Positions 3 to 21,952 of a stretch of DNA of 23,660 nt are shown here, piece after piece. A program made the position numbers and the translations under genes. Every line of letters starts with the position of its first letter. Positions within the stretch are counted from its first letter, which is position 1. The notes below the pieces were generated by a model, which did no database searches, was not told the DNA's origin, and saw only the letters and a list, made by a program, of their open reading frames with translations. The DNA is from a virus: positions 1-23,660 of IMG/VR virus record IMGVR_UViG_3300045996_001150, one strand, 5' to 3'.

Positions 3-1055
3 AAAGGTTTCAGCTTCCATTGCATGACCGGCGAACCGGACGACAACGCCGGGACATGGTTCGGCCTGGTCACGGTCATTCGCGATCCGCAGCGGTGGGC
101 GAACAAGTGGGCAACGCAGATCATCGCGATTTTGAACACGACGGCGAAGGGCGGCATTATCGCCGAGAAGGACGCTTTCGACGATCCGCAGCAAGCCGAG
201 GAGAACTATGCGGCGCCCGATGCGATCACCTGGGCCGCACACGGGGCGCTCGCAAAGCAAAAGATCATCCCCAAGCCTGGCGCCGGCAACATCAACGGCC
301 TAGACGGTATGTTGCAGCTCGCCCTTGAGGAGATCCGGCAAGTCTCGGGCGTGAACATGGAAATTCTCGGCCTTCGCGACGCCAATCAACCCGGGGTGTT
401 GGAAGCGCAGCGCAAACAAGCCGCGATGACAATCCTCGCGACGCTGTTCGATAGCCTCCGGCGGATGCGCCGCTACATCGGTATCAACCGGCTGCACTAC
501 ATTCAAAACTTCCTTTCCGATGGGCGCCTGATCCCGATCATCGGGGAGGACGGGGCGAAGCGTTACATCGCGTTGCAAAAGCAGGCCGTCGCTGGTGACT
601 ATGACGTGATCGTCGAGGACGCCCCGACATCGCCAAACCAGAAGCAAGAGACATGGCAAATCATCATGCAGATGTTGCCGGCGATCCGCGACAAGCTCAC
701 GCCGCAAGTTCTGGTCCTGCTGCTCGAATATTCGCCGTTGCCGTCGAAGCTGGTCGACGCGCTCAAGCAGATGATCGAACAGCCGGACCCGAAAGCCGAG
801 CAACGCGCCGACATCGCCGACGCAACGGCGCTGGCGGAAGCCGAGAAGACGCGCGCCGGAGCGGCCAAGGACCGAGCGCAGGCGAACAAGACGAACCTCG
901 ACGGCATCCTTGAGCTGATTGGTGCCGCTGCAACGGGTGCCAGCCTTGCAGAAGCATCTCGGCTCTATAACGCGGTGCCTGGGCAGTCTAGATTGCCAGC
1001 GCCGGCCGGTCCCGATCTATCCGGCGGCGTCCCGGCGGGGGCGACGGTGAACTAG
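3..1055 (+). CDS. Portal protein, C-terminal part (P22-type), truncated by window edge
   Basis: The frame is open from base 3 with no stop before the first visible ATG at 24, so the gene begins upstream of the window; 350 codons are visible. The portal is the dodecameric ring at the DNA-packaging vertex that docks the terminase and later the tail adaptors. Supporting features are a QVSGVNMEILG segment followed by QPGVLEAQRKQAAM, which resembles the conserved core of P22-like portals, then a long helical stretch (LFDSLRRMRRYIGINRLHYIQ) and a charged Ala/Lys/Glu-rich helical tail ending in a low-complexity Pro/Gly segment, like the barrel end of P22 gp1. Its place upstream of scaffold and coat also fits, although a five-gene island now separates them. 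The last ~70 bases contain two copies of a motif related to the repeats downstream. The family is fairly certain; the missing N-terminus cannot be judged. Confidence 0.85.
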   Translation, partial: KGFSFHCMTGEPDDNAGTWFGLVTVIRDPQRWANKWATQIIAILNTTAKGGIIAEKDAFDDPQQAEENYAAPDAITWAAHGALAKQKIIPKPGAGNINGLDGMLQLALEEIRQVSGVNMEILGLRDANQPGVLEAQRKQAAMTILATLFDSLRRMRRYIGINRLHYIQNFLSDGRLIPIIGEDGAKRYIALQKQAVAGDYDVIVEDAPTSPNQKQETWQIIMQMLPAIRDKLTPQVLVLLLEYSPLPSKLVDALKQMIEQPDPKAEQRADIADATALAEAEKTRAGAAKDRAQANKTNLDGILELIGAAATGASLAEASRLYNAVPGQSRLPAPAGPDLSGGVPAGATVN

Positions 1056-1156: not shown

Positions 1157-1822
1157 ATGCAGAAGCGAGCGCCAAAATCTAGGCCGTCGACTAAGGTCGT
1201 CGTGCTTGCGGCAACGAAGGGCGGCGTCGGCAAAACGACGCTCTCGGCCTGCCTGGCATGCTGGGCGGCAAAGCAGGGTCACAGGGTCGGCCTGATCGAC
1301 GCCGATCCGCAAGCCTCGCTCTCCCGCTGGGCACAGGTCCGGGGGAACAATGGGTTGGATCAGCCGGAGCTTTTGAACGTCGAGTGTGCGCCGGAAGCCC
1401 TGGGCCACGTTGCGGCGGAAGGGTATGACTGGCTATTCGTCGATACGCCTCCGGCCCTGGTCGACGACATTCAGAACGCCGTCGAGATCGCCGACTTTGT
1501 GCTCGTCCCGTCGAAAACCTCGATCGACGTCGAGGCGATGGATCAGATCGTCGAGATCATCGGCGAGGAAAGCAAGCCGTTCGCGTTCGTGTTGAACGAC
1601 GTCGAGGCGCGTTGGAAGCTCGACGCGGGCGCCGCGACGTATCTCGCCGAAGCCGGCCGCGTGCTCAAAGAAACCGTTGGCCATCGTCGGGCCTATGTGA
1701 CGGCCATGCTCGCCGGCAAAACCGGGCCGGAAGCCGAGCGCGACGGCAAGTGCGCCGAGGAAATTGCGGCGTTGTGGAAAGTCGTGCAACGGGCCGTTGC
1801 AAGCGCGAGGGCCAAGGCATGA
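1157..1822 (+). CDS. ParA-family partition ATPase (short, type Ib-like)
   Basis: The protein has 221 residues. It shows the deviant Walker A motif KGGVGKTT at residues 21-28, Walker A' LIDADPQ at 46-52 and Walker B LFVDTPP at 93-99, the signature of ParA/MinD-type ATPases. It starts directly with the ATPase fold and lacks the N-terminal helix-turn-helix of type Ia ParA, as expected for short type Ib ParAs that work with an RHH partner; such a partner follows with a 4-base ATGA overlap. ParA proteins bind nucleoid DNA when ATP-loaded and move cargo whose centromere-bound partner stimulates hydrolysis. The start at 1157 is supported by AGGGGA six bases upstream. VirC1-like or other ParA-type positioning proteins are alternatives. 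Its place between portal and scaffold is unusual, because partition genes are normally in plasmid or lysogeny modules. Confidence 0.9.
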   Translation: MQKRAPKSRPSTKVVVLAATKGGVGKTTLSACLACWAAKQGHRVGLIDADPQASLSRWAQVRGNNGLDQPELLNVECAPEALGHVAAEGYDWLFVDTPPALVDDIQNAVEIADFVLVPSKTSIDVEAMDQIVEIIGEESKPFAFVLNDVEARWKLDAGAATYLAEAGRVLKETVGHRRAYVTAMLAGKTGPEAERDGKCAEEIAALWKVVQRAVASARAKA

Positions 1823-2106
1823 CCGCAGACATCAGCGAGGACGAGGCAAGCAGCCTGTTCGATGCGCTGCGCAAGCGGCACGTTCGGACGGATGACAGGT
1901 CAATCTCAGGCCGTCGCGTTCGCGAGGCGCGGCCTATGAACCATCGACGGCGCGTCAAGAGTGACCGGACGGTACAAGTGAACCTCAAGTTTGAGCCGGC
2001 ATTCAAGAAGCTCATGCAGGCCGTCGCCGAGCAACGCAACGTCACCATGACGGAGCTGATCGAGCATGCGGTGAACGCCTACGTCAGCAACGGGGGCGCC
2101 GAATGA
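1819..2106 (+). CDS. Ribbon-helix-helix protein, ParG/ParB-like partner of ParA
   Basis: This 95-residue protein starts at the ATG overlapping the parA stop (ATGA) and itself overlaps the next gene the same way. Residues 51-95 fit an RHH fold: a strand TVQVNLKF (51-58), helix EPAFKKLMQAVAEQR (59-73), a turn NVTM and a second helix TELIEHAVNAYVSNG. Residues 1-50 form a polar tail that is strongly basic near RKRHVR and NHRRRVK, comparable to the flexible N-terminal tail of ParG-type proteins, which contacts ParA and carries an arginine that stimulates ATP hydrolysis. The role inferred is DNA binding at the repeats upstream of parA, acting both as autorepressor and as centromere adaptor. A plain transcriptional regulator or antitoxin-like RHH is possible, but no toxin gene is adjacent. 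Confidence 0.8.
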   Translation: MTADISEDEASSLFDALRKRHVRTDDRSISGRRVREARPMNHRRRVKSDRTVQVNLKFEPAFKKLMQAVAEQRNVTMTELIEHAVNAYVSNGGAE

Positions 2107-3868: not shown

Positions 3869-4957
3869 ATGGATACCGATACAACTCAGACGGCCGATCA
3901 GGGCTCGTCCGACTTCACTCCCGCAGAAATGGCTTTCATCAACTCGCAGGGCTCCGATCCTGCGGCGGCTGATGCCCTCGCCAAAGAGTACAGCGGGGGT
4001 AGTAGCCAGAACGACGCGACCGGCCTAGAAACGCAAAAAACAGGCTCTAGCGTCGAAAACGCCGATTTGCCGCCGAATGACCCGGCCGAAGGGCAGCTAA
4101 TCGACACGGAGTTTCTACAACTCGACGCCAACGGGCAGGTTCGGGACAAGCGCACGAATAAGTGGGTGTCGCACCAGGCTTTGCACCGCGAGCGCATTCG
4201 GCGGCAGGAAGCGCAGACCGAAGCGCAGACGCTTCGCGAAAGGCTCGCAGCCAAAGACGAGCGCTCGGCGATCCTCGATCAGTTCTTGAAGCCGGAAGAC
4301 AAGGACGGCGGCGACAAGAAAGCCGACGCGCCGAAAAACCCGTTCGAGGAAGCGACGATTGATCCGACCGTCGACTACATCGGCGCGTTGAAGCAGACGG
4401 CGCGCCGGCAAGAGTGGCAACATCAGCAGGCGCAAGAGCGCGCGCAGGCCGACGCGAAGCGAAACGAAGTCCAGACGTTCCGCTCGCAGTTTGAAAGCGA
4501 CGTCGCGGCTTACGGCAAAACGACACCCGACTTCGGCGCCGCGCTCGATCATCTGTCGTCGACCTTGGCAAAGACGGCGGCGCGTCGCGGCGTTGCTGCC
4601 GACAAGGTGCAAGCGACAGTGACGGCGATGCTGGTCGACATTGCTCGCGAAGCGCAAGGCGCGAAGAAAGGCATGGCCGAAACGCTGTACGGGCTCGCCG
4701 AGGATTTGGGCTATGTGAAGAAAGCCGCAGATCCGAAGGACGATCCGAAAAAGCAAGCCGAGGAAGCGATCGAGAAGATTGCAAAGGTGCAAGAGGCGTC
4801 GCGTTCGATCACCGGCAAGGGCAGCGCTGCGCAGAGTGACGGCTTGCCGAGCGTCGACGAATTTATCAATATGCCCACCGAAGACGCATTGAAGTTCGAG
4901 CGGGATTTAGGTCCGAACAAGTTTCGAGCTTGGATGAAGTCGCGAGGGCAAGCGTAG
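3869..4957 (+). CDS. Scaffolding protein (probable)
   Basis: The product has 362 residues and starts at 3869 with AGGGGA (3857-3862) six bases upstream. It is polar and mostly helical: an acidic, low-complexity N-terminal third rich in D, E, S, T and Q, then long Glu/Gln/Lys/Arg/Ala helices (QTEAQTLRERLAAKDER, RRQEWQHQQAQERAQADAKR) and a charged C-terminal end. This composition, the size and the position directly before the major capsid gene match podovirus scaffolding proteins, which fill the procapsid interior, guide coat assembly and leave before DNA packaging. P22 gp8 ends in a basic coat-binding helix-turn-helix; here the last residues (NKFRAWMKSRGQA) are basic and may play that role. 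Family membership is based on context and composition, because scaffolds diverge quickly. Confidence 0.75.
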   Translation: MDTDTTQTADQGSSDFTPAEMAFINSQGSDPAAADALAKEYSGGSSQNDATGLETQKTGSSVENADLPPNDPAEGQLIDTEFLQLDANGQVRDKRTNKWVSHQALHRERIRRQEAQTEAQTLRERLAAKDERSAILDQFLKPEDKDGGDKKADAPKNPFEEATIDPTVDYIGALKQTARRQEWQHQQAQERAQADAKRNEVQTFRSQFESDVAAYGKTTPDFGAALDHLSSTLAKTAARRGVAADKVQATVTAMLVDIAREAQGAKKGMAETLYGLAEDLGYVKKAADPKDDPKKQAEEAIEKIAKVQEASRSITGKGSAAQSDGLPSVDEFINMPTEDALKFERDLGPNKFRAWMKSRGQA

Positions 4958-4984: not shown

Positions 4985-5022
4985 CTGCCCGACGAGATGG
5001 CCAGCGTGTTCGCGTCGGGCAG
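4985..5022 (+). promoter_or_regulatory. 10-bp hairpin in coat-gene leader
   Basis: CTGCCCGACG (4985-4994) and CGTCGGGCAG (5013-5022) are perfect inverted repeats around an 18-base loop. It begins 27 bases after the scaffold stop. No T tract follows, so it is more likely an mRNA stability or processing structure than a classical terminator, although partial termination is possible. The 236-base gap 4958-5193 holds no gene; a smaller inverted repeat TGGCC/GGCCA occurs at 5098-5115. Confidence 0.5.
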
Positions 5023-5039
5023 GGTGCAAATCCCTTTCG

Positions 5040-5058
5040 GCTTGGTCGCCGTAAAATG
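5040..5058 (+). repeat. Leader element, copy B (upstream of coat gene)
   Basis: GCTTGGTCGCCGTAAAATG is the second copy of the element at 3773-3790. It sits 18 bases after the 10-bp hairpin and 135 bases before the coat start codon. The terminal ATG opens a short frame (MIRNRATA, then stop). The shared core is TCGCCGTRAAATG. Confidence 0.45.
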
Positions 5059-5193
5059 ATCCGCAATCGCGCGACGGCGTGACGTCTGCGCTCCGGCTGG
5101 CCCCGATATAGGCCAATCCAACAACAGGCATTCAATCGGCATCGCCCGAGCTGCGTCTAAACGCGCCCGGCGATCCCTGACGAGGGCGAAGCT

Positions 5194-6267
5194 ATGGCAG
5201 AGAACTCATTTGGCGTGAACGACGCGAACGCCGTAAAACTTTGGCAGAAGCGTCTCGAAGTCGCCGAGCGTGACAGCACCGACATTGCGCCGCTGATGGG
5301 CACAAGCCCTGACAGCATCATTCACATCAAAGAGGAAACGACGAAAGGCCCCGGCGATCGGGTGCGCTTCTCGCTGCGTCCTCGTCTGTCCGGCGCCGGC
5401 AAGACTGAGAGCGACGTCGCCGAGGGGCAGGGCGAAGGCTTGTCGATCTATTACGACGACGTGACGATCAATGAGCTGTTCCACATCGTCGCCGCGAAGT
5501 CCGAGAACACGATCGACCATCAGCGCGTGCCGTGGGATCTTCGCGAGGAATGCCGTGGCGCGCTCGGCGATTGGTGGGCCGACCGCAACTCCGCAGCATT
5601 TTTTAACCAGGTGTGCGGCAACACGGCCCAAGTCGACATCAAGTACACCGGCATGATCGCGACAACGGCTCCGTCGTCTGATCGCATCCTTCGCGCTGGC
5701 GCGCAGGCAAACGATCAATCGCTGACGAGCAGCCACCCGTTCGTGCTCGGGCTGATCGACAGCGCCGTCGAGAAGGCATCGGTCGGAAACAACAAGATCC
5801 GCCCGCTCCGCATCGGCGGCAAGCTGAAATATGTCATGTACCTCCATCCGTATCAGGTGACGTCCCTGCGGACGAACACCGCAACGGGTCAGTGGCTCGA
5901 CATTCAGAAGGCGGCAATGGCCGGCTCTGATAGCTCCAAGTCGCCGATCTATACGGGCGCGCTCGGCGAGTACAACGGCGTAATCTTGCGCGTGTCGCAG
6001 GACATTCCGCTTGGTTGCAACTCGTCGACGCCGACGACTGCCGTCGCCAATACGCGGCGCGCGGTGCTGCTCGGCGCACAGGCTGCGGCGGTTGCCTACG
6101 GGAAGAAGCACGGCCCCAGCAAATACCGCTGGAACGAGGAATTGCTTGACCACAAGCGCAAGCTCGAAGTCGGCGCCTTCTGCATCATGGGCATGAAGAA
6201 GACGGTGTTTAACAGCTCCGACTTCGGCGCGCTCGTCGTGTCCACCTACGCCGCTGCCGCTGCGTAA
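5194..6267 (+). CDS. Major capsid protein, N4-gp56-like family
   Basis: The protein has 357 residues and is preceded by GAGG eight bases before the ATG. Its pattern fits the N4-gp56 coat family (HK97-fold shells): an N-terminal segment with LWQKRLEVAERDSTDIAPLMG, an early strand-rich part ending at DDVTINELFHIVAAKSENTIDHQRVPWDLREECRGALGDWWADR (long helix of the P-domain type), the central YVMYLHPYQVTSLR segment that is typical of this family, and a C-terminal KRKLEVGAFCIMGMKKTVFNSSDFGALVV. The product forms the icosahedral shell. Its location after the scaffold and the long structured leader imply high expression. Pairing with a P22-type portal shows a mosaic head module. Confidence in the coat assignment is high. 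Confidence 0.88.
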   Translation: MAENSFGVNDANAVKLWQKRLEVAERDSTDIAPLMGTSPDSIIHIKEETTKGPGDRVRFSLRPRLSGAGKTESDVAEGQGEGLSIYYDDVTINELFHIVAAKSENTIDHQRVPWDLREECRGALGDWWADRNSAAFFNQVCGNTAQVDIKYTGMIATTAPSSDRILRAGAQANDQSLTSSHPFVLGLIDSAVEKASVGNNKIRPLRIGGKLKYVMYLHPYQVTSLRTNTATGQWLDIQKAAMAGSDSSKSPIYTGALGEYNGVILRVSQDIPLGCNSSTPTTAVANTRRAVLLGAQAAAVAYGKKHGPSKYRWNEELLDHKRKLEVGAFCIMGMKKTVFNSSDFGALVVSTYAAAAA

Positions 6268-6297
6268 TCCTTCAATCTCGGAATAGGAGCGCTCGCT

Positions 6298-6720
6298 ATG
6301 GGCACCGGAACACTACAGACGGACGCGCAGAAGTACGAAACAAATCAGGTTCACTATCTGCGCAAGCGCGTAACGTACAATGAGACGGGCATCGCAACCG
6401 GCGTGTCGATGGGCAAAGTCCCGGCCGGCTCGATGATCCTCGACGCTGGCGCACGCATCGAAACCGGCTTCAACTCGGCCGGCACAAATCGCCTCGTCAT
6501 CGGCACCAACTCGTCGTCCTACAATAACATCATGACGAGCACGGTCGCCGCAGCTTCGACGACGGGCGGCAAGAAGTCGACCATCGGCGCGGCTTTGTCC
6601 TTCACGCAGGACACCGAAGTTTTCGCCAAGTACACGGCGGCAACCGGAACGGCGGCGTCTGCCGGCGTTGCGACGCTGGTCGTTGCCTATGTGCCCGGCC
6701 GCGTCGCTGGCCAGGCGTAA
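6298..6720 (+). CDS. Small head protein, possible capsid decoration protein
   Basis: The product has 140 residues, with AGGAG at 6285-6289 before the ATG. It is rich in Thr, Ser, Gly and Ala, has no cysteine and alternates short hydrophobic strands with polar turns (VPAGSMILDAGARIETGF, NRLVIGTN, VATLVVAYVPG), which suggests an all-beta fold. Proteins of this size immediately after the coat gene are often decoration or head-stabilising proteins on the capsid surface. The segment from residue 39 onward (VSMGKVPAGSMILDAGARI) resembles small conserved proteins found behind N4-gp56-type coats. The surface-exposed Ser/Thr content makes it a possible substrate for the glycosyltransferase encoded next. 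The function is inferred from context. Confidence 0.6.
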   Translation: MGTGTLQTDAQKYETNQVHYLRKRVTYNETGIATGVSMGKVPAGSMILDAGARIETGFNSAGTNRLVIGTNSSSYNNIMTSTVAAASTTGGKKSTIGAALSFTQDTEVFAKYTAATGTAASAGVATLVVAYVPGRVAGQA

Positions 6721-6727
6721 GACACTA

Positions 6728-6751
6728 CGGGGCGGCCATCCGGTCGCCCCG
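6728..6751 (+). terminator. Strong hairpin after the head-protein gene
   Basis: CGGGGCGGCC (6728-6737) pairs with GGTCGCCCCG (6742-6751) as a 10-bp stem with one G-U pair and a four-base loop. It starts eight bases after the stop codon of the small head protein. There is no T tract, so it may attenuate rather than stop transcription, or protect the coat mRNA 3' end, giving lower expression downstream. Confidence 0.55.
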
Positions 6752-6754
6752 ATC

Positions 6755-6770
6755 ATCTTCGGGGGAAGAT
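6755..6770 (+). promoter_or_regulatory. Hairpin enclosing the ribosome-binding site of the next gene
   Basis: ATCTTC (6755-6760) and GAAGAT (6765-6770) form a perfect 6-bp stem around the loop GGGG. The only Shine-Dalgarno sequence, GGGGGA (6761-6766), lies in the loop and the right arm, and the start codon ATG follows at 6771 without a gap. Folding would hinder ribosome loading, so translational control of the enzyme gene is plausible. Confidence 0.5.
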
Positions 6771-8150
6771 ATGCCAAAGCATCACCACTATCAGGGCGGC
6801 GAAGCTGCGCGCGATTTCAATACGCAAGCTCTGCCCTATCACGTCATGATCGCAACGCCGACGTCGCGCGGCCTGTGCGTGCCCTATGTGATGGGCATCG
6901 TCGCGACCATCGAGACGCTGATCCGCTTCGGCGTGAAAACCGACTTCCATCTTCTCGCGGACGATTGCCACGTCGACGACGCGCGCAACAAGATTTTCCG
7001 CGAATTTCTGACGACGCCTTGCACCGATCTTCTGTTCATCGATAGCGATATGGGCTGGCGGCCCCAAGATGTGCTGCGGCTGCTCTCAGCGCCCGGCGAC
7101 ATCGTTGCCGGCATCTATCGCCACAAGAACGAGGTCGAGACGTATCCTTTCCATCCCGGCAGCAACACCGGCCCGCGCACCGCGAACGAACACGGCCTGT
7201 TTGAAATGCCGAAGGTGCCCACGGGCTTTATGCGAATTCGGCGTGAGGTCATCGAAGCCCTGCACAAGTGGGAAGTCGATAAAGGCCGCGTCTTTTGGGA
7301 CAGTCCCGAGGACGAGGCGACGGGCAAGATCCCGATCGCGGCGATCTGCGAGCGCGCCTTCGCCTCTGAAATGAAACTGTCGATCGAGGTCGGCGATCAC
7401 AGCAACCGGCATTCCGGCGATCTCGTGCTGTGCCTGAAAGCGCGCCATCTCGGCTTCAAATGCTTTGCCGATCTCGAAATGCAGTTCGATCACGTCGGCG
7501 AACAGGCTTGGACAGGCAATCTCGGCAACTTCCTGCGCCGGCAGCAGGGCTTGCAAAATCCCGGCTTCTGCGAGGCCGTCGACATGATCCGCGCCGGCAA
7601 AACCGGCCCCTCGACGTTCCGCAAGCTGTTTGAAGCCTTCGGCGTGACCGAATGGCCCATGATGCCGGAAGGGCTGCACGAGCTGTTTCACGAGGTCAAG
7701 AACGGCTCCGGCGACGTTCTCGAAACCGGATCGGGCCTGTCGACGCTGGTTATCAGCCTTGCCCTGGAAGGCACGTCGCGCAAGCTGCATGCGCTCGAAC
7801 ACGACGTTCTCTATTGGCAGCAAACCGGGCAATGGCTGCAACGTTACGATCTGACGTCCAACGTCGTGTTGCACCTGGCGCCGCTCATGCCCCAAGGCGG
7901 TTGCATCTGGTACGACATCGGGCCTCGCGATCTGCCAGAGCATTTCGGCGTCGCCCTGATCGACGGGCCTCCGCACAAGTACGGCCGCGACGGCGTGTTC
8001 CACATTCTCGGCGACGCCTTGGCCAGCGCAACGATGATCCTCGACGACGCGGCGCGCGAGCGGTTCGAGATCGACACACACGACATTGAAATGCGCGTGT
8101 GCAATCGGACGTATGCCGTCGCGCGTCCGAAGCTGGCGAGGGCGGCATGA
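6771..8150 (+). CDS. Glycosyltransferase (GT-A-like) fused to SAM-dependent methyltransferase-like domain
   Basis: The product has 459 residues in two parts. Residues about 24-260 look like a GT-A glycosyltransferase: a VMIATPTSRG start strand, LLFIDSDMGW with a DXD-type metal site (D91-S-D93), and FADLEMQFDHVG (232-243) with a His at the place of the usual late metal ligand. Residues about 300-459 look like a class I methyltransferase: DVLETGSGLST (316-325) as the SAM-binding loop, the acidic ALEHD (341-345) after the second strand, ALIDGPP (395-401) and MILDDA (422-427). It would transfer a sugar, and perhaps methylate it or another target. The position between head-protein and adaptor genes suggests virion-protein modification; modification of host surface or small molecules is an alternative. 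The acceptor is unknown. A hairpin covers its ribosome-binding site. Confidence 0.75.
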   Translation: MPKHHHYQGGEAARDFNTQALPYHVMIATPTSRGLCVPYVMGIVATIETLIRFGVKTDFHLLADDCHVDDARNKIFREFLTTPCTDLLFIDSDMGWRPQDVLRLLSAPGDIVAGIYRHKNEVETYPFHPGSNTGPRTANEHGLFEMPKVPTGFMRIRREVIEALHKWEVDKGRVFWDSPEDEATGKIPIAAICERAFASEMKLSIEVGDHSNRHSGDLVLCLKARHLGFKCFADLEMQFDHVGEQAWTGNLGNFLRRQQGLQNPGFCEAVDMIRAGKTGPSTFRKLFEAFGVTEWPMMPEGLHELFHEVKNGSGDVLETGSGLSTLVISLALEGTSRKLHALEHDVLYWQQTGQWLQRYDLTSNVVLHLAPLMPQGGCIWYDIGPRDLPEHFGVALIDGPPHKYGRDGVFHILGDALASATMILDDAARERFEIDTHDIEMRVCNRTYAVARPKLARAA

Positions 8151-8791
8151 GCACGTTGGGAACGATGAAGTCGCGCATCGCTCGCGAGCTTCGGCGAACA
8201 GATCTGACGACGCAGATCGCCGAGGCCATCGCGAGCGCAATCCAGCACTATCAGAAGGAAATCTTTACCTTCACCGAAACGCGCGGCCTCACGTTCCCGA
8301 CTGTTGCATCGCAGGAATTTTACGACAGCGCCGACAACGCCAACATTCCTCTGCTGATCCGGCTCGACTGGCTTCGCCTGGAACACGGCGGGCACTCGTT
8401 CAAGCTGTTCCGCAACTATGACGAGGAGCTAGAGCTATCATCGGGCGGCGGCACAAACACCGGCATGCCGTCCGAGTTCTCATACTTCAACGAGAAATTT
8501 CGGCTCTATCCGGTCCCGGATCAGGTCTACACGGTTCGCATGGCCGGGCATTTCATGCTTGCCGCACCCGCCGGCGACAGCACCGAAAACAATAAATGGA
8601 TGACGGACGGCGAAAACCTGATCCGCCAGCATGCCAAGTATGAGCTGTTCCTGAACGTCCTACAGCGGCCCGATATGGTCGCGCTCTACACGCCGGAGAA
8701 TGAGAACGGCCCCGTCTATCGTGCTCGATCTGCCTTGCGCGGCCTTCGGGCCTCCCGTGGAACGGGCCGCGTCCAAGCGTGGGGCTTCTGA
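8147..8791 (+). CDS. Head-tail adaptor, P22 gp4-like tail accessory factor (probable)
   Basis: The product has 214 residues; the start at 8147 overlaps the previous stop (ATGA), whereas the upstream extension in this frame would lie inside the enzyme gene. The N-terminal part (MKSRIARELRRTDLTTQIAEAIASAIQHYQKEIFTFTETRG) is the helical start typical of gp4-like adaptor proteins, followed by a middle beta-rich part (FRLYPVPDQVYTVRMAGHF) and a helical C-terminal part (ENLIRQHAKYELFLNVLQRPDM). This pattern recurs in podovirus adaptors that bind below the portal ring and connect it to the tail hub. The neighbours on both sides, especially the hub-like gene downstream, support this. The assignment is from motif style plus gene order. 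Confidence 0.72.
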   Translation: MSTLGTMKSRIARELRRTDLTTQIAEAIASAIQHYQKEIFTFTETRGLTFPTVASQEFYDSADNANIPLLIRLDWLRLEHGGHSFKLFRNYDEELELSSGGGTNTGMPSEFSYFNEKFRLYPVPDQVYTVRMAGHFMLAAPAGDSTENNKWMTDGENLIRQHAKYELFLNVLQRPDMVALYTPENENGPVYRARSALRGLRASRGTGRVQAWGF

Positions 8792-10482
8792 TGATCCCGT
8801 TCGGCGAATTCCGGCCCGATCTCAGCGACACGGCGACAAAGATCGTTGCGGAAGCGGCGAACGTCATCCCGCGCGCTGATGGTTACGGCCCATTCCCGAG
8901 CCTTGAGGCCGTGTCCGAGGCGTTGGGCTCTCGGTGTCGCGGATACTTCTCGGCCGATCTCGACGGCGAAGCGTTCTTTTTCGCGGCGACTGAAACCGAT
9001 CTGTTTCTGCTCGACAATACGACGCTGATCTTCTCGAACGTCAGTCAAAGCGGCGGCCCGTATGCAGGGCTCGACACTAAGTCGCAATGGCAATTTGTGC
9101 AGTTCAATAATCTCGTGCTGGCGACGCACCGCAACGTCGTTTTGCAGCGGTTCGATCTCGCGTCGGATACGGAATTCGAGGACAATCCCGACAATCCGCC
9201 GCAAGCCGGCGCGATCGGTGTCGTCGGGCGGTTCGTCATGCTGGCCGATCTTCTCGACGATCCGCAGCGCGTCGCGTGGTGCGGCTTGAATGACACCGAA
9301 AATTGGACGTTCGGCACCGGAAGCAGTGACTTTCAGGATCTCCCGGACGGCGGGCGCGCCCTGCGGATTGCCGGCGGCGAATTCGGCTTCATCCTGCAAG
9401 CGCTGGCGGTGCGGACGATCGTCTACCAACCCGGCTCGGACGTCATTTTCGCGATCAAGCGCGTAGGCGAGAACAAGGGCATTCTGGCGCAATATTCGCT
9501 CATTTCAACCGGCGGCCGGCATTTCTTCTTAGCGACGAGCGGATTTGTCGAGCTGAATTTCGACGGCAGCCTAACCCCGATAGGCGCCGAAGCGGTCGAC
9601 CGGACATTTTTCGCGGCGGCGGCGCTGGACTTTCCACAATTCATCCTGGGCGGTGCCGATCCGAAGCGCGATCTTGTGTTTTGGAGCTACAAGAGCGCCA
9701 GCAGTCCCGACGATCTGTTCGACAAGGTGTTGCCGTACAATACGCTGCTCAAGCGGTGGGGTGCGCCGCTCTCGATCACGGGGGAGTTCTTCGCCTCGGC
9801 CTCGCGTCCTGGCCTGACGCTGGAAGCTCTCGACGCGATTGCGCCTGGCGCCCTTGAGATCACGGACGCCGTAGACAACGGGTCCGGCCTGATCCGCCTT
9901 GAGGTCGGCGACACGTCGAGCCTGACGACGGGCGAATTTAAGACGATCTCCGGCGTTGGCGGCGTGACCAACGCGAACGGCAATTTCGAGATTGACGTGA
10001 TCGACGGGACGCACGTCGACCTTATCGGATCGACGTTCGCGGGCTCCTACACGTCAGGCGGCGTTATCGCCGGCAGTATCGACTTGCTGTCGTTCTCACT
10101 CGACGACGTGTCGACGGCAACGCTGCCGAACCTCGCATGCTTCAACAGCGATCATCAGCTCGGGTTCTTCTCAGGCCCGGTCCTTGAGGCCGTGATTGAG
10201 GGGCCGGAACAGCGGATTGACGGCTGGCGGATGACGACTGACGGCTTCTTTCCTCTCACCGATGCCGAGGAATGTTTCGGCTCCGTCACGAAGCGCGACA
10301 CGCTGCACGGCGATTATGTCGCCAGCTCTGAAAGCGCGATGGATAGCGACGGCTTCTGTTGCGTGCTTGAAGACGCGCGCTCGATGCGGCCTCGGGTTCG
10401 CATTCCGGCCGGCGTGGCCTGGACATATGCGAAGGGCGTCGACACGACGGACTATAGCTTCATCAGGGGGTCGCGGCTATGA
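8791..10482 (+). CDS. Tail hub/nozzle protein, P22 gp10-like (probable), with FCCH-like insert
   Basis: The product has 563 residues from the ATG at 8791, which overlaps the previous stop by one base (TGATG); a GTG four codons earlier is less likely. The sequence is almost all short beta strands with repeated aromatic/Gly turns (RGYFSADLDGEAFFFAATETDLFLL, WQFVQFNNLVLATHR), as in propeller-like podovirus hub or nozzle proteins that close the tail tube below the adaptor ring. The N-terminal motif FGEFRPDL...VIPRADGYGPFPSLE is characteristic of this phage family. Residues about 346-428 form an inserted module with GVTNANGNFEIDVIDGTHVDLIGS...YTSGG, resembling the FCCH-type beta module that recurs in phage tail proteins. 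Function as hub is inferred from fold style and order; confidence is good for virion role. Confidence 0.72.
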   Translation: MIPFGEFRPDLSDTATKIVAEAANVIPRADGYGPFPSLEAVSEALGSRCRGYFSADLDGEAFFFAATETDLFLLDNTTLIFSNVSQSGGPYAGLDTKSQWQFVQFNNLVLATHRNVVLQRFDLASDTEFEDNPDNPPQAGAIGVVGRFVMLADLLDDPQRVAWCGLNDTENWTFGTGSSDFQDLPDGGRALRIAGGEFGFILQALAVRTIVYQPGSDVIFAIKRVGENKGILAQYSLISTGGRHFFLATSGFVELNFDGSLTPIGAEAVDRTFFAAAALDFPQFILGGADPKRDLVFWSYKSASSPDDLFDKVLPYNTLLKRWGAPLSITGEFFASASRPGLTLEALDAIAPGALEITDAVDNGSGLIRLEVGDTSSLTTGEFKTISGVGGVTNANGNFEIDVIDGTHVDLIGSTFAGSYTSGGVIAGSIDLLSFSLDDVSTATLPNLACFNSDHQLGFFSGPVLEAVIEGPEQRIDGWRMTTDGFFPLTDAEECFGSVTKRDTLHGDYVASSESAMDSDGFCCVLEDARSMRPRVRIPAGVAWTYAKGVDTTDYSFIRGSRL

Positions 10483-10793: not shown

Positions 10794-11214
10794 CGTGCTC
10801 TGCGTTCCACCGTTCGCGGTTCGGGAGATGCTTCCGAGGCTGCGCCCGCATCTGATGCGCGGCTGCGAGGTCGCCAAAACAAAAATGGCGACGGTGATCG
10901 ATAGCGTCGAAAGCGGCGACGCCCTCGTTTGGATGGCTTGCGAGACATTCCCGCCGCGCATTCTCGGCGTGTTCGTGACGGAGATTTACGAGCGCGAGGC
11001 CGGCGGGAAATATCTCGTCGTGTCTGCGCTCGCCGGAACCGAGCTAAAGCGATGGGCGATCCTCGCTCGTGACACGATCGACCAATTCGCGCGCAAGGAA
11101 GGCTGCGACGCCGCACGCTTCGCCGGCCGGTTCGGCTGGTCGCGGATATTCACTGACAGTCGCGTCATCTCGGGCGCGGGTGACACCGCTGTTTACGAAA
11201 GGGCGATCGCATGA
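10777..11214 (+). CDS. Possible GNAT-fold virion protein (T7 gp13-like position)
   Basis: The product has 145 residues and overlaps the previous gene by 17 bases; CGGGAG at about 10764-10769 serves as ribosome-binding site. The pattern of alternating strands and helices, with a central GVFVTEIYEREAGGKYLVVSALAG and a C-terminal FARKEGCDAARFAGRFGWSRIF, resembles small acetyltransferase-like proteins found between tail-hub and ejection genes, of which T7 gp13 is the best-known positional counterpart. The GCxxARxxGRxGWxR segment is the most distinctive part. Enzyme activity is doubtful: I see no clear acetyl-CoA loop (Q/RxxGxG/A). It probably acts in virion assembly. The assignment rests on pattern and gene order. 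Confidence 0.5.
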   Translation: MSASVNVLCVPPFAVREMLPRLRPHLMRGCEVAKTKMATVIDSVESGDALVWMACETFPPRILGVFVTEIYEREAGGKYLVVSALAGTELKRWAILARDTIDQFARKEGCDAARFAGRFGWSRIFTDSRVISGAGDTAVYERAIA

Positions 11215-12284
11215 GCGGCGGCATCGGCGGAGAGAAAAAGGACACGAAAAGTCAAGCGCAGTCCGACCCGTGGGACGTGGCCATTCCCTATATTCAACAG
11301 GTTCTCGGCAAGGCCGGATCGGCGATGAGCACGACGCCAACCGGCCCGACGCCGGATCAGATCGCAGCGGCTAACGAGATCAAAACCACGGCCAAGGCCG
11401 GGCATCCCTTCACCGACGCGATCAAGGGCGTTGCGACCGATCTATTCGAGACTGAAAGCCGATCGCCGGCCGTCGAGGCTGGCTATGCCGATTTTGATGC
11501 GCGCGTGAAGGATACGGCGGACGGAAAAAACCTGGACATTCTCAACAATCCGCATCTGCAAGCGATGTTGCAGCTTGTCGGCGACAACGCCTCGGAAGCT
11601 GTTGAGGGACGTTTTGCATCTGCCGGCCGCGACTTTTCAGGGTACGAAGGGCGGGCGATCGCAAAGGGCGTGGCCGACGCGCAGACGCCGCTTCTCCTCG
11701 ATCAGTTCAATCGGGAGCAAGGCCGCACCGACGCGGCGGCGCGCGACATCTACGGCGCGAACAAGGACACGCAGACGACGGCCGCAGCTCTCGACGAGAT
11801 GCGCGAAAAACTTCGCATTGCCGGAATTGACGTCGGGCAGGCTGGCGTCGACGCCTCGCTTTGGGGGCCTGAGACGATCCTTAAAGTCGAGGAAATGCTT
11901 AAAGCCATGCCAGCGGAAGATATGAAGCGGTGGGCAGAGATTTTCTTCCCGGCCGGCCAGCTCGGATCGCAGGAAAGCGGCACGTCGCAAACGAAAAGCT
12001 CGAAATGGGGCGTTTCGGCCAGCTTGAAAGACGTTGGAACGGTCGCGACTGCTATCGGCTCGCTCTCCGATCGTCGCATGAAGCAGGACGTTCGCCGGAT
12101 CGGCACGCTTAACGATGGCCAGCCGGTTTACAGCTTCCGATACCTCGGCAATCCGGTCGTTCACGTCGGCCTGATGGCGCAAGAGGTAGAGGCCGTTGTC
12201 CCTGGCGCCGTTCACGAGGTCGACGGCGTGAAGTTCGTCGACTACGGGCTCGCCACACAACGCGCAGCCGAGATGGAGGGCTAA
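11211..12284 (+). CDS. Internal virion-like protein with C-terminal S74 intramolecular chaperone
   Basis: The product has 357 residues and overlaps the previous gene by ATGA. Residues 1-270 are polar, Ala/Asp/Gln-rich and mostly helical. From residue 286 the sequence SDRRMKQDV...QPVYSFRYLG...VHVGLMAQEVEAVVPGAV matches the S74 chaperone domain of endosialidases and tail fibres, which trimerises, helps folding and is then cut off just before the conserved Ser-Asp; the S286-D287 pair is intact. Fibres normally carry this domain after beta-helix parts, whereas here it follows a helical domain in the place of small internal virion proteins (T7 gp14-like). The protein might be a short fibre or an ejection-channel component assembled as a trimer. 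The S74 domain is sure; the rest is not. Confidence 0.75.
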   Translation: MSGGIGGEKKDTKSQAQSDPWDVAIPYIQQVLGKAGSAMSTTPTGPTPDQIAAANEIKTTAKAGHPFTDAIKGVATDLFETESRSPAVEAGYADFDARVKDTADGKNLDILNNPHLQAMLQLVGDNASEAVEGRFASAGRDFSGYEGRAIAKGVADAQTPLLLDQFNREQGRTDAAARDIYGANKDTQTTAAALDEMREKLRIAGIDVGQAGVDASLWGPETILKVEEMLKAMPAEDMKRWAEIFFPAGQLGSQESGTSQTKSSKWGVSASLKDVGTVATAIGSLSDRRMKQDVRRIGTLNDGQPVYSFRYLGNPVVHVGLMAQEVEAVVPGAVHEVDGVKFVDYGLATQRAAEMEG

Positions 12285-21051: not shown

Positions 21052-21311
21052 CGTTCTCCCCCGATTTTCAGAATTGCATAGTAGACGTGAATTGCGAAAG
21101 CCTTCTCGGCGGTCCCGAACGCGAGCATAAAGGCGAGGATCGCGAACGCGTGCGACGCGATGTTGAAGACGTGGGCGGCCGGCTCCGGTGTCACCCTGGC
21201 CAGCCAGTAGCAGACGACGGCGCCGGCCACGCGCAACAGAACGAGCGTAATCGTAATCGGCGCCGGCACGAACCGAAGGGCAACGCGCTTTGTCCAACCG
21301 GGACGGAGCAC
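21015..21311 (-). CDS. Small multi-pass membrane protein coupled to resolvase
   Basis: The product has 98 residues and starts at a GTG that overlaps the resolvase stop codon by one base (TAGTG), so translation is coupled. Two or three hydrophobic stretches are present: APITITLVLLRVAGAVVCYWLA (about 17-38), FNIASHAFAILAFMLAF (about 49-65) and a weaker third near AFAIHVYYAILK. The N-terminus is basic (inside by the positive-inside rule). No family was recognised. Linkage to a recombinase is unusual; the gene might be a separate accessory function (membrane protection or exclusion) carried in the same transcript. Confidence 0.55.
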   Translation of the reverse strand: MLRPGWTKRVALRFVPAPITITLVLLRVAGAVVCYWLARVTPEPAAHVFNIASHAFAILAFMLAFGTAEKAFAIHVYYAILKIGGERWSTPANKSPAE

Positions 21312-21859
21312 TATGCGAGCCTCCCGATTACCTTGTGCGATACGCCGAACGTTTTCCCGACTTGCCGGTGCGACTGCCCGGCCGCGATCATCTTCCGGGC
21401 CTCGGCCTGCTGGTGCGCGTCCAGCTTCGGCCGGCGGCCGAATTTGACGCCACGGGCTAAGGCATACGCCATGCCCTGCTTGCCGCGCCTGACGATCCTC
21501 TGACGCTCGTCCTCGGCCATTGCGGAGAGCAGGGCCATGATCCCGCGGCCGATCGGCGTCGTCAGATCGAGATAGGCCCGATCAAGCACCTTCACCATAG
21601 CGCCGCGATCGGCGATACGTTCAAGGATCTTGAGGCCGTCATTCATCGATCGCGTTGCGCGGTCCCACTCGGCGACGATCAGCAAGTCGCCCTTGCCGAG
21701 CGCATCGATCGCCTTCGCGAGCTGCGGCCGGTTCGCGGTGTCCTTGCCTGATGCCTTCTCGGCGAAGATCCGATCGCATTTCTCGCCCTTGAGGGCGCCG
21801 ATCTGACGATCGAGGTTCTGTTCGATCGTCGACACTCGGGCGTAGCCTATGCGCTTCAT
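21311..21859 (-). CDS. Serine recombinase, resolvase/invertase family
   Basis: The product has 182 residues from the ATG at 21859, chosen because GGGGGATCAG precedes it and the family starts with MKRIGYARVS; a frame extending to 21907 would add 16 unlikely residues. It shows the catalytic serine in YARVST (S10), the KASGKD segment (about 35-40), the WDRATRS motif (variant of the LDRLGRS active-site arginines), the long E-helix region (GRGIMALLSAMAEDERQRIV) and a C-terminal HTH (AAGQSHRQVGKTFGVSHKVIGRL). It is thus a complete small resolvase/invertase. It makes site-specific double-strand breaks with 2-bp overhangs at paired sites. Probable roles are resolution of genome multimers or inversion; no invertible fibre segment is visible. 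An inverted repeat lies 35-93 bases upstream of its start. Confidence 0.9.
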   Translation of the reverse strand: MKRIGYARVSTIEQNLDRQIGALKGEKCDRIFAEKASGKDTANRPQLAKAIDALGKGDLLIVAEWDRATRSMNDGLKILERIADRGAMVKVLDRAYLDLTTPIGRGIMALLSAMAEDERQRIVRRGKQGMAYALARGVKFGRRPKLDAHQQAEARKMIAAGQSHRQVGKTFGVSHKVIGRLA

Positions 21860-21893
21860 CTGATCCCCCGAAATTGAGCTCGAATGCGTCCCG

Positions 21894-21952
21894 CCTTTAC
21901 GTCCCACAACAAAGCCTTGATTTTCGGGCGTTCGTCAACGTGGGACGAAAGG
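21894..21952. repeat. Inverted repeat upstream of resolvase (candidate res site/operator)
   Basis: CCTTTACGTCCCAC (21894-21907) is repeated inverted as GTGGGACGAAAGG (21940-21952): CGTCCCAC/GTGGGACG are perfect, and CCTTT/AAAGG match after one skipped A at 21899. A related half-site GCGTCCCGC occurs at 21887-21895. Small serine resolvases act at sites just upstream of their own gene built from such inverted subsites, so a crossover site or autoregulatory operator is likely. There is no gene in 21860-21981. Confidence 0.5.

Follow-up and report, generated by a model that had tools for sequence, protein, structure and literature searches.

A glycosyltransferase-methyltransferase fusion with a conserved place behind the coat gene of tailed phages, a candidate virion-modifying enzyme

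Glycosylation of virions is regarded as uncommon among tailed phages; the literature consulted describes it from some mycobacteriophages, in which antibody responses are reportedly weakened as a result. Corndog-type (Cluster O) mycobacteriophages encode an O-methyltransferase (gp35) and glycosyltransferases (gp36-38) in the structural operon (PMC4351075), and a passage of PMC11600133, citing Freeman et al. 2023, states that these enzymes have been reported to modify the capsid and the tail tube. As summarized in passages of PMC7826918 and PMC9614988 that cite a PNAS 2020 study, the 638-residue A064R polypeptide of PBCV-1, arranged as GT-GT-MT, extends and O-methylates the glycan of the capsid protein. 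In STIV, the viral protein A197 is essential and has been suggested to glycosylate the coat (PMC10551542). No description of a glycosyltransferase (GT) fused to a methyltransferase (MT) in a tailed phage was found in the literature.

The window considered here, namely the whole stretch of 23,660 bases that was analyzed, corresponds to one entire IMG/VR virus record and is probably a fragment of a larger genome. Its plus strand carries a P22-like head module, with the fusion gene and the head genes being similarly oriented (Table 1). The first-pass annotation had described a single 459-residue frame within the head operon and had named a series of motifs in its product. These motifs, namely DSD (residues 91-93), H241, ETGSGLST (318-325), EHD (343-345), and IDGPP (397-401), were indeed all found in one open frame that begins with ATG, with GGGGGAAG upstream. 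The stop codon of the fusion gene and the start codon of the adaptor gene share the sequence ATGA (8147-8150) and, as such, the adaptor gene was taken to start at 8147 and not at 8099. A promoter scan revealed no sigma-70-like promoter within positions 5000-8900 of the window, and no nucleotide-sugar pathway genes were recognized in the window.

Table 1. Positions of the fusion gene, its domains and motifs, and neighboring features (window coordinates unless a locus is named; fractions refer to full-length homologs).
Feature	Position	Strand	Remarks
Portal C-terminus	24-1055	+	PF16510
Scaffold-like gene	3869-4957	+	
Major coat protein, candidate acceptor	5194..6267	+	PF13252 (Phage_capsid_3), E 3e-84
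140-aa Ser/Thr-rich small protein behind coat gene, candidate acceptor	6298..6720	+	phrog_18422, weak
10-bp GC-rich hairpin between 140-aa gene and fusion gene	6728..6751	+	-28.4 kcal/mol, z -4.5
Second hairpin, covering the ribosome-binding site of the fusion gene	6755-6770		
GT-MT fusion gene, 459 aa	6771..8150	+	AlphaFold model pLDDT 91.5, pTM 0.85
GT-A glycosyltransferase domain, residues 24-262	6840..7556	+	phrog_1574 family
D69-D70-A-R72-N73 motif, presumably on the donor-binding side	6975..6989	+	D69, R72 52/52; D70, N73 51/52
D91-S-D93, DxD metal/nucleotide-sugar motif	7041..7049	+	both Asp 52/52
H241, late His	7491..7493	+	52/52
Class I SAM-dependent O-methyltransferase domain, residues ~290-459	7638..8147	+	
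E318-T-G-S-G-L-S-T325, SAM-binding loop	7722..7745	+	E318, G322 52/52
E343-H-D	7797..7805	+	E343 52/52
D398-G-P-P, putative first metal ligand, COMT-type	7962..7973	+	D398 52/52; aligns with first D of FIDADK in 6jcl
D425-D426, putative second and third metal ligands	8043..8048	+	both 52/52; align with DN pair of 6jcl
Head-tail adaptor	8147..8791	+	SU10_adaptor PF24175
gp10-like virion structural protein	8779..10482	+	phrog_3287
TPR-transferase, Methyltransf_23, and Glyco_transf_8 cassette	L131:7490-10587; L140:2210-5078		

Two hairpins lie immediately upstream of the fusion gene. In a relative (L001, 7938-8003), a comparable 10-bp GC-rich hairpin, likewise devoid of a T-run, occupies the gap that separates the small head gene from the fusion gene. 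The idea that the upstream hairpin serves as a terminator was rejected, given that it lacks a T-run and was not picked by a terminator scan. The hairpins may lower the output of the enzyme relative to that of the coat.

Elsewhere in the window, a ParA-type ATPase (AAA_31, E 8e-19) and then a small ORF with weak likeness to ribbon-helix-helix proteins occupy positions 1157-2106 (+), between the portal and scaffold genes, while a serine resolvase is encoded at 21311-21907 (-), near the right end. Together, these amount to a plasmid-like partition set placed within the head operon, possibly reflecting a phage-plasmid lifestyle. Positions 11211-12284 encode a structural protein that ends in a Peptidase_S74 intramolecular chaperone domain and that matches virion structural and DNA ejection families.

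Direct searches of Pfam and NCBIfam with the fusion protein gave no match, and a single-sequence phmmer search of the PDB returned only chance matches. In profile searches, the N-terminal domain matched phrog_1574 (E 3e-18, positions 14-233 of 240), as did all 42 N-domain rows considered, with STIV A197 (2c0n) being the top match of known structure (E 4e-7). When folded alone, this domain yielded a confident model (pLDDT 93, pTM 0.90) of GT-A fold for which Foldseek again placed 2c0n first (E 4e-8). Further fold matches included Mnn9, SpsA, mimivirus R699, and the GT domains of LH3 and COLGALT1, both collagen-type protein glycosyltransferases; the PBCV-1 capsid glycosyltransferase 2p72 appeared at rank 47 (E 1e-3). 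H241 is presumably a metal binder, as is the late His of GT-A enzymes.

A 47-row alignment of full-length homologs served to generate an AlphaFold model of the complete protein, which comprises two domains. When this model was compared with the PDB using Foldseek, the top 50 matches were all methyltransferases, mostly COMT-like O-methyltransferases (E 9e-7 to 2.5e-5), and covered the C-terminal part. At the profile level, the C-terminal domain matched 3cvo (E 6e-10) and an O-methyltransferase family 3 protein (E 3e-5), while the corresponding domain of one homolog (L052) passed the Pfam cut-off for Methyltransf_24. The fold and the SAM motifs are common to this domain and the cation-dependent O-methyltransferases of the COMT/SynOMT type (Methyltransf_24), with three Asp residues aligning at the places of putative metal ligands; the identity is only about 12-16%. 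Many characterized members of the COMT type act on catechols, and the fold serves many substrates. We take E343 to be the acidic residue that binds the ribose of SAM, and the assignment of D398, D425, and D426 as putative metal ligands draws on established knowledge of COMT-like families and on sequence alignment. The GT-A-like and SAM methyltransferase-like domains proposed at first pass are, therefore, upheld, the former by the phrog_1574 and STIV A197 profiles, the fold, and the unvarying D91, D93, and H241, and the latter by Methyltransf_24 in the homolog and by class I O-methyltransferase profile and fold matches, with structure prediction having assigned both folds confidently.

To assess conservation, relatives were drawn from an IMG/VR profile scan by protein sequence, of which the best 80 of 179 confirmed relatives were taken. 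Together with other loci, these provided 52 complete full-length proteins, which fall into 44 clusters when grouped at 70% identity and into 22 when grouped at 50%. Twenty positions are invariant in a 49-row alignment and the catalytic and ligand positions are invariant or nearly so across the 52 proteins (Table 1), such that the motifs of the fusion stand far beyond chance. A search of 50,697 phage records revealed a single relative that spans 80% or more of the protein; it comes from the spring-water phage record MW202691 and carries the annotation 'polysaccharide biosynthesis'. In a 398-genome sample of the phylum assigned to a metagenome-assembled genome (MAG) that carries the gene (L095), the full fusion was found in that MAG only, with the GT domain alone being present in 14 others.

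These findings bear on two alternatives to a role in modifying the virion. Because the gene lies in the midst of structural genes and shares ATGA with the adaptor gene, the protein could be packaged in or attached to the particle, there modifying host glycans upon entry, or could be a structural part that has retained its fold. This is very improbable, since a purely structural role would have no need for invariant catalytic residues and since, in many loci, the slot that the gene occupies contains nothing or holds unrelated genes. That the comparable Corndog enzymes were not found among the virion proteins (PMC4351075) likewise agrees with the protein being catalytic and not structural. Alternatively, given that phage DNA glucosylation is known (PMC9614988), the GT could glycosylate a modified base while the MT methylates DNA. 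Such an activity is hardly credible, with the MT fold being COMT-like and unlike that of a DNA methylase, the gene sitting in the head operon, no base-hypermodification genes having been recognized among the ORFs scanned, and family and fold searches having shown no likeness to DNA glucosyltransferases.

Since the homologs were retrieved by protein sequence and not by position, where they are encoded is informative. From relatives including the best 80 of the 179 in IMG/VR, 55 distinct two-domain proteins were obtained (identical proteins having been merged, with the counts otherwise ignoring kinship), of which 45 come with more than 1.8 kb of upstream sequence. In all 45, a coat gene lies within 1.2 kb upstream, ending 221-1014 bases (median 302) before the fusion gene. 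Downstream, an adaptor or gp10 gene is found within 3 kb in 33 of 35 cases. The search for the same fusion next to other capsid genes, as suggested in the first-pass annotation, thus found every distinct homolog with sufficient upstream sequence behind a coat gene. Carriers of the fusion span two coat families, PF13252 and PF11651. Of the coats of the 52 full-length proteins, 44 are P22-type and six, including that of the window, are of PF13252, with two proteins having no coat gene in the stretch covered; the six PF13252-coat carriers form a single branch in the tree of the 52 (support 100/100).

This placement is also relevant to the proposal that the enzyme modifies LPS or capsule sugars at the surface of the infected or lysogenic cell, leading to superinfection exclusion or seroconversion. 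Phage glycosyltransferases of this action are well known, P22 gtrABC being an example treated in part of PMC10883804, and some carriers of the fusion may be temperate, with L095 lying within a MAG contig and the L052 record appearing to be genome-derived. However, O-antigen seroconversion of the gtrABC type involves a membrane flippase and lipid-linked GT partners, neither of which was seen around the fusion gene, whose neighbors are the coat, the small head protein, the adaptor, and gp10. The fusion protein itself contains no membrane segment (peak 19-residue hydropathy 1.58), and its nearest GT folds include protein and viral-capsid glycosyltransferases. When the consistent position behind the coat gene is also considered, modification of the host surface is quite unlikely.

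The region between the coat and adaptor genes was further considered in loci retrieved with coat proteins as bait, using short peptide patterns and hence not constituting a random sample. Here, the fusion gene was present in 0 of 49 slots behind PF13252 coats and in 2 of 63 behind P22-type coats, with the GT alone occupying the slot in a further 13 of the 63. The fusion gene is, therefore, an accessory gene with a fixed address, found behind the coat wherever enough upstream sequence was available yet rare in coat-baited loci; its being a core head gene was rejected, as most coat-baited relatives, including close coat relatives, do not contain it. In the P22-type coat-baited loci, all 17 ORFs of the GT family fall within the slot and none outside, although the slot represents only 12.4% of the DNA (binomial p 4e-16, kinship ignored). 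In five PF13252-coat loci (L131, L140, L141, L145, and L151), the slot is instead taken by a cassette that bears no homology to the fusion. It combines a TPR protein whose C-terminal part resembles a transferase with proteins of the Methyltransf_23 and Glyco_transf_8 families, the former not being detected in L145 and the latter matching Pfam at E 3e-5 in L131 and at 3e-4 in L140. The cassette of L131 additionally includes a sugar-pathway-like gene (Polysacc_synt_C, weak). Other coat-baited slots contain small beta-rich-looking ORFs or long Ser/Thr-rich fiber-like ORFs. That two unrelated solutions offering the same pair of activities occupy one slot favors a role at the virion surface.

Even if the virion is the target, the two domains could act separately, the GT adding an unmethylated sugar and the MT being directed at another glycan or at the side chain of a protein. 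The breadth of substrates served by the COMT-type fold would allow for this, as would the lack of an assigned function for 3cvo, to which the MT domain is most similar in sequence among PDB entries, and the occurrence of GT-only versions in the same slot, indicating that the GT can act alone. Nonetheless, separate action is considered unlikely, as in the loci examined the MT domain was seen only fused to the GT, as the pairing of the two activities recurs both in the unrelated cassette and in adjacent MT and GT genes by a head-tail connector gene in L233, and as the A064R precedent involves methylation of the sugar just added. In L233 (914-2196), a bacterial genome, the methyltransferase gene overlaps the GT gene and adjoins a Phage_connect_1 head-tail connector gene, thus presenting a split GT-MT pair. 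A similar MT adjacent to the GT in L236 was rejected, as only a 50-residue piece could be aligned (12 bits).

Many carriers contain a second, GT-only copy of the family near or right behind the fusion gene (L022, L025, L029, L046, L063, L071, L073, and others), which suggests a second sugar. In L004, L005, L007, L012, and L093, the same GT family forms part of longer proteins that lack the MT and in which it seems to be linked to further parts resembling glycosyltransferases. The GT family would, therefore, appear to be a frequent fusion partner.

Taken together, the intact GT-A and MT active sites and the strongly conserved place by the coat gene make modification of the virion the best reading, and it is probable that the fusion is a soluble enzyme with two activities, through which virion proteins receive an O-methylated sugar. 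According to this reading, the fusion gene would be expressed with the late (head) operon. The GT-A domain, relying on a nucleotide-sugar from the host and a divalent metal, would transfer a sugar either directly to Ser/Thr of a virion protein or onto a sugar already attached there, with the most likely acceptors being the coat and other proteins at the surface of the head and neck. The COMT-type domain would then use SAM and a metal to O-methylate that sugar, thereby capping it. The resulting particles would carry a methylated glycan, and the benefit might be masking, stability, or altered adsorption. This two-step account is the simplest. Precedents for each step are available, namely A064R for GT-MT action on a capsid glycan and the Corndog-type enzymes for an O-methyltransferase and GTs of a structural operon.

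Concerning the acceptor, the small protein encoded just before the fusion had been described as Ser/Thr-rich and, indeed, its Ser+Thr content of 22.9% is the highest of the 17 main window proteins tabulated. The family of this 140-residue protein is, however, present in about 40 coat relatives that do not carry the fusion gene and was not detected in the fusion-carrying lineages with P22-type coats. Within the family, the median Ser+Thr share is 0.228 in carriers as compared to 0.169 in non-carriers, yet seven of the eight carriers form one tree cluster, one carrier shows a value of 0.156, and several non-carriers reach 0.21-0.24. The Ser/Thr content was, therefore, rejected as evidence, and the 140-residue protein is not supported as the dedicated target. 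For P22-type coats, the Ser+Thr share is 0.172 in carriers and 0.163 in others (p 6e-4, kinship ignored), a difference too slight to use. As such, Ser/Thr content gives no usable signal in either protein and does not allow the acceptor to be named. Accordingly, of the earlier proposal of a dedicated virion coat-modification enzyme, the GT-A/MT fusion, the intact active sites, and the conserved place beside the coat stand, whereas the 140-residue protein as a special target is not supported.

The bacterial relatives of the GT domain were also considered. Six of 14 bacterial GT-only relatives (L239, L241, L243, L244, L247, and L248) are encoded directly behind a large flagellar gene, although these six loci are probably closely related and so represent one observation. 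Extension of two of these (L247:164-4816 and L248:7-5150) revealed the upstream pair to encode FlgK (PF22638, E 5e-40 and 2e-41) and a FlgL/flagellin-like protein, the latter showing a weak Flagellin_N match (E 3e-4) in one locus and no Pfam match in the other. The GT of the flagellar locus shares 26% identity with the GT domain of the window over 212 columns. The bacterial protein encoded behind flgK and the flgL/flagellin-like gene is thus a candidate flagellar glycosyltransferase, its context fitting that of a glycosyltransferase acting on filament proteins.

At a broader level, the balance of these observations tilts toward a previously unrecognized and widespread group of podoviruses that glycosylates and methyl-caps its own capsid by means of one fused enzyme, with the gap between the coat and adaptor genes being a conserved slot for virion-surface chemistry, filled, depending on lineage, by homologous GTs, the fusion, the unrelated GT-MT-GT8 cassette, or decoration or fiber genes. 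The 44 clusters (70% identity) in which the fusion is linked to the coat gene come mostly from environmental podoviruses; if the proposed role is true, self-made methylated glycan coats would be common in nature, and a function would be given to phrog_1574, now listed as unknown. The findings suggest that many phages modify their own virions chemically, and the coat-adaptor slot offers a concrete locus in which to find further virion-modifying enzymes.

In comparing the fusion with known systems, the N-terminal domain is a member of phrog_1574 by profile score, although that family, labeled as being of 'unknown function', does not include a methyltransferase part. Among solved structures, STIV A197 ranks first for the GT domain by both profile and fold, but it comprises a GT only, comes from an archaeal virus, and has a putative acceptor. 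With the Corndog-type enzymes, as likened by gene content and descriptions, the fusion shares the presence of GT and O-methyltransferase functions in the structural operon of a tailed phage, yet in those phages the activities are encoded by separate genes found between the portal and protease genes, whereas the fusion gene lies between the coat and adaptor genes. Finally, PBCV-1 A064R likewise unites GT and O-methyltransferase domains in one viral polypeptide, and the GT-A domain of the fusion matches 2p72 at the fold level; A064R, however, belongs to a eukaryotic algal virus, contains two GT domains, and extends an existing N-glycan, while the fusion described here is encoded by a tailed phage and contains one GT.
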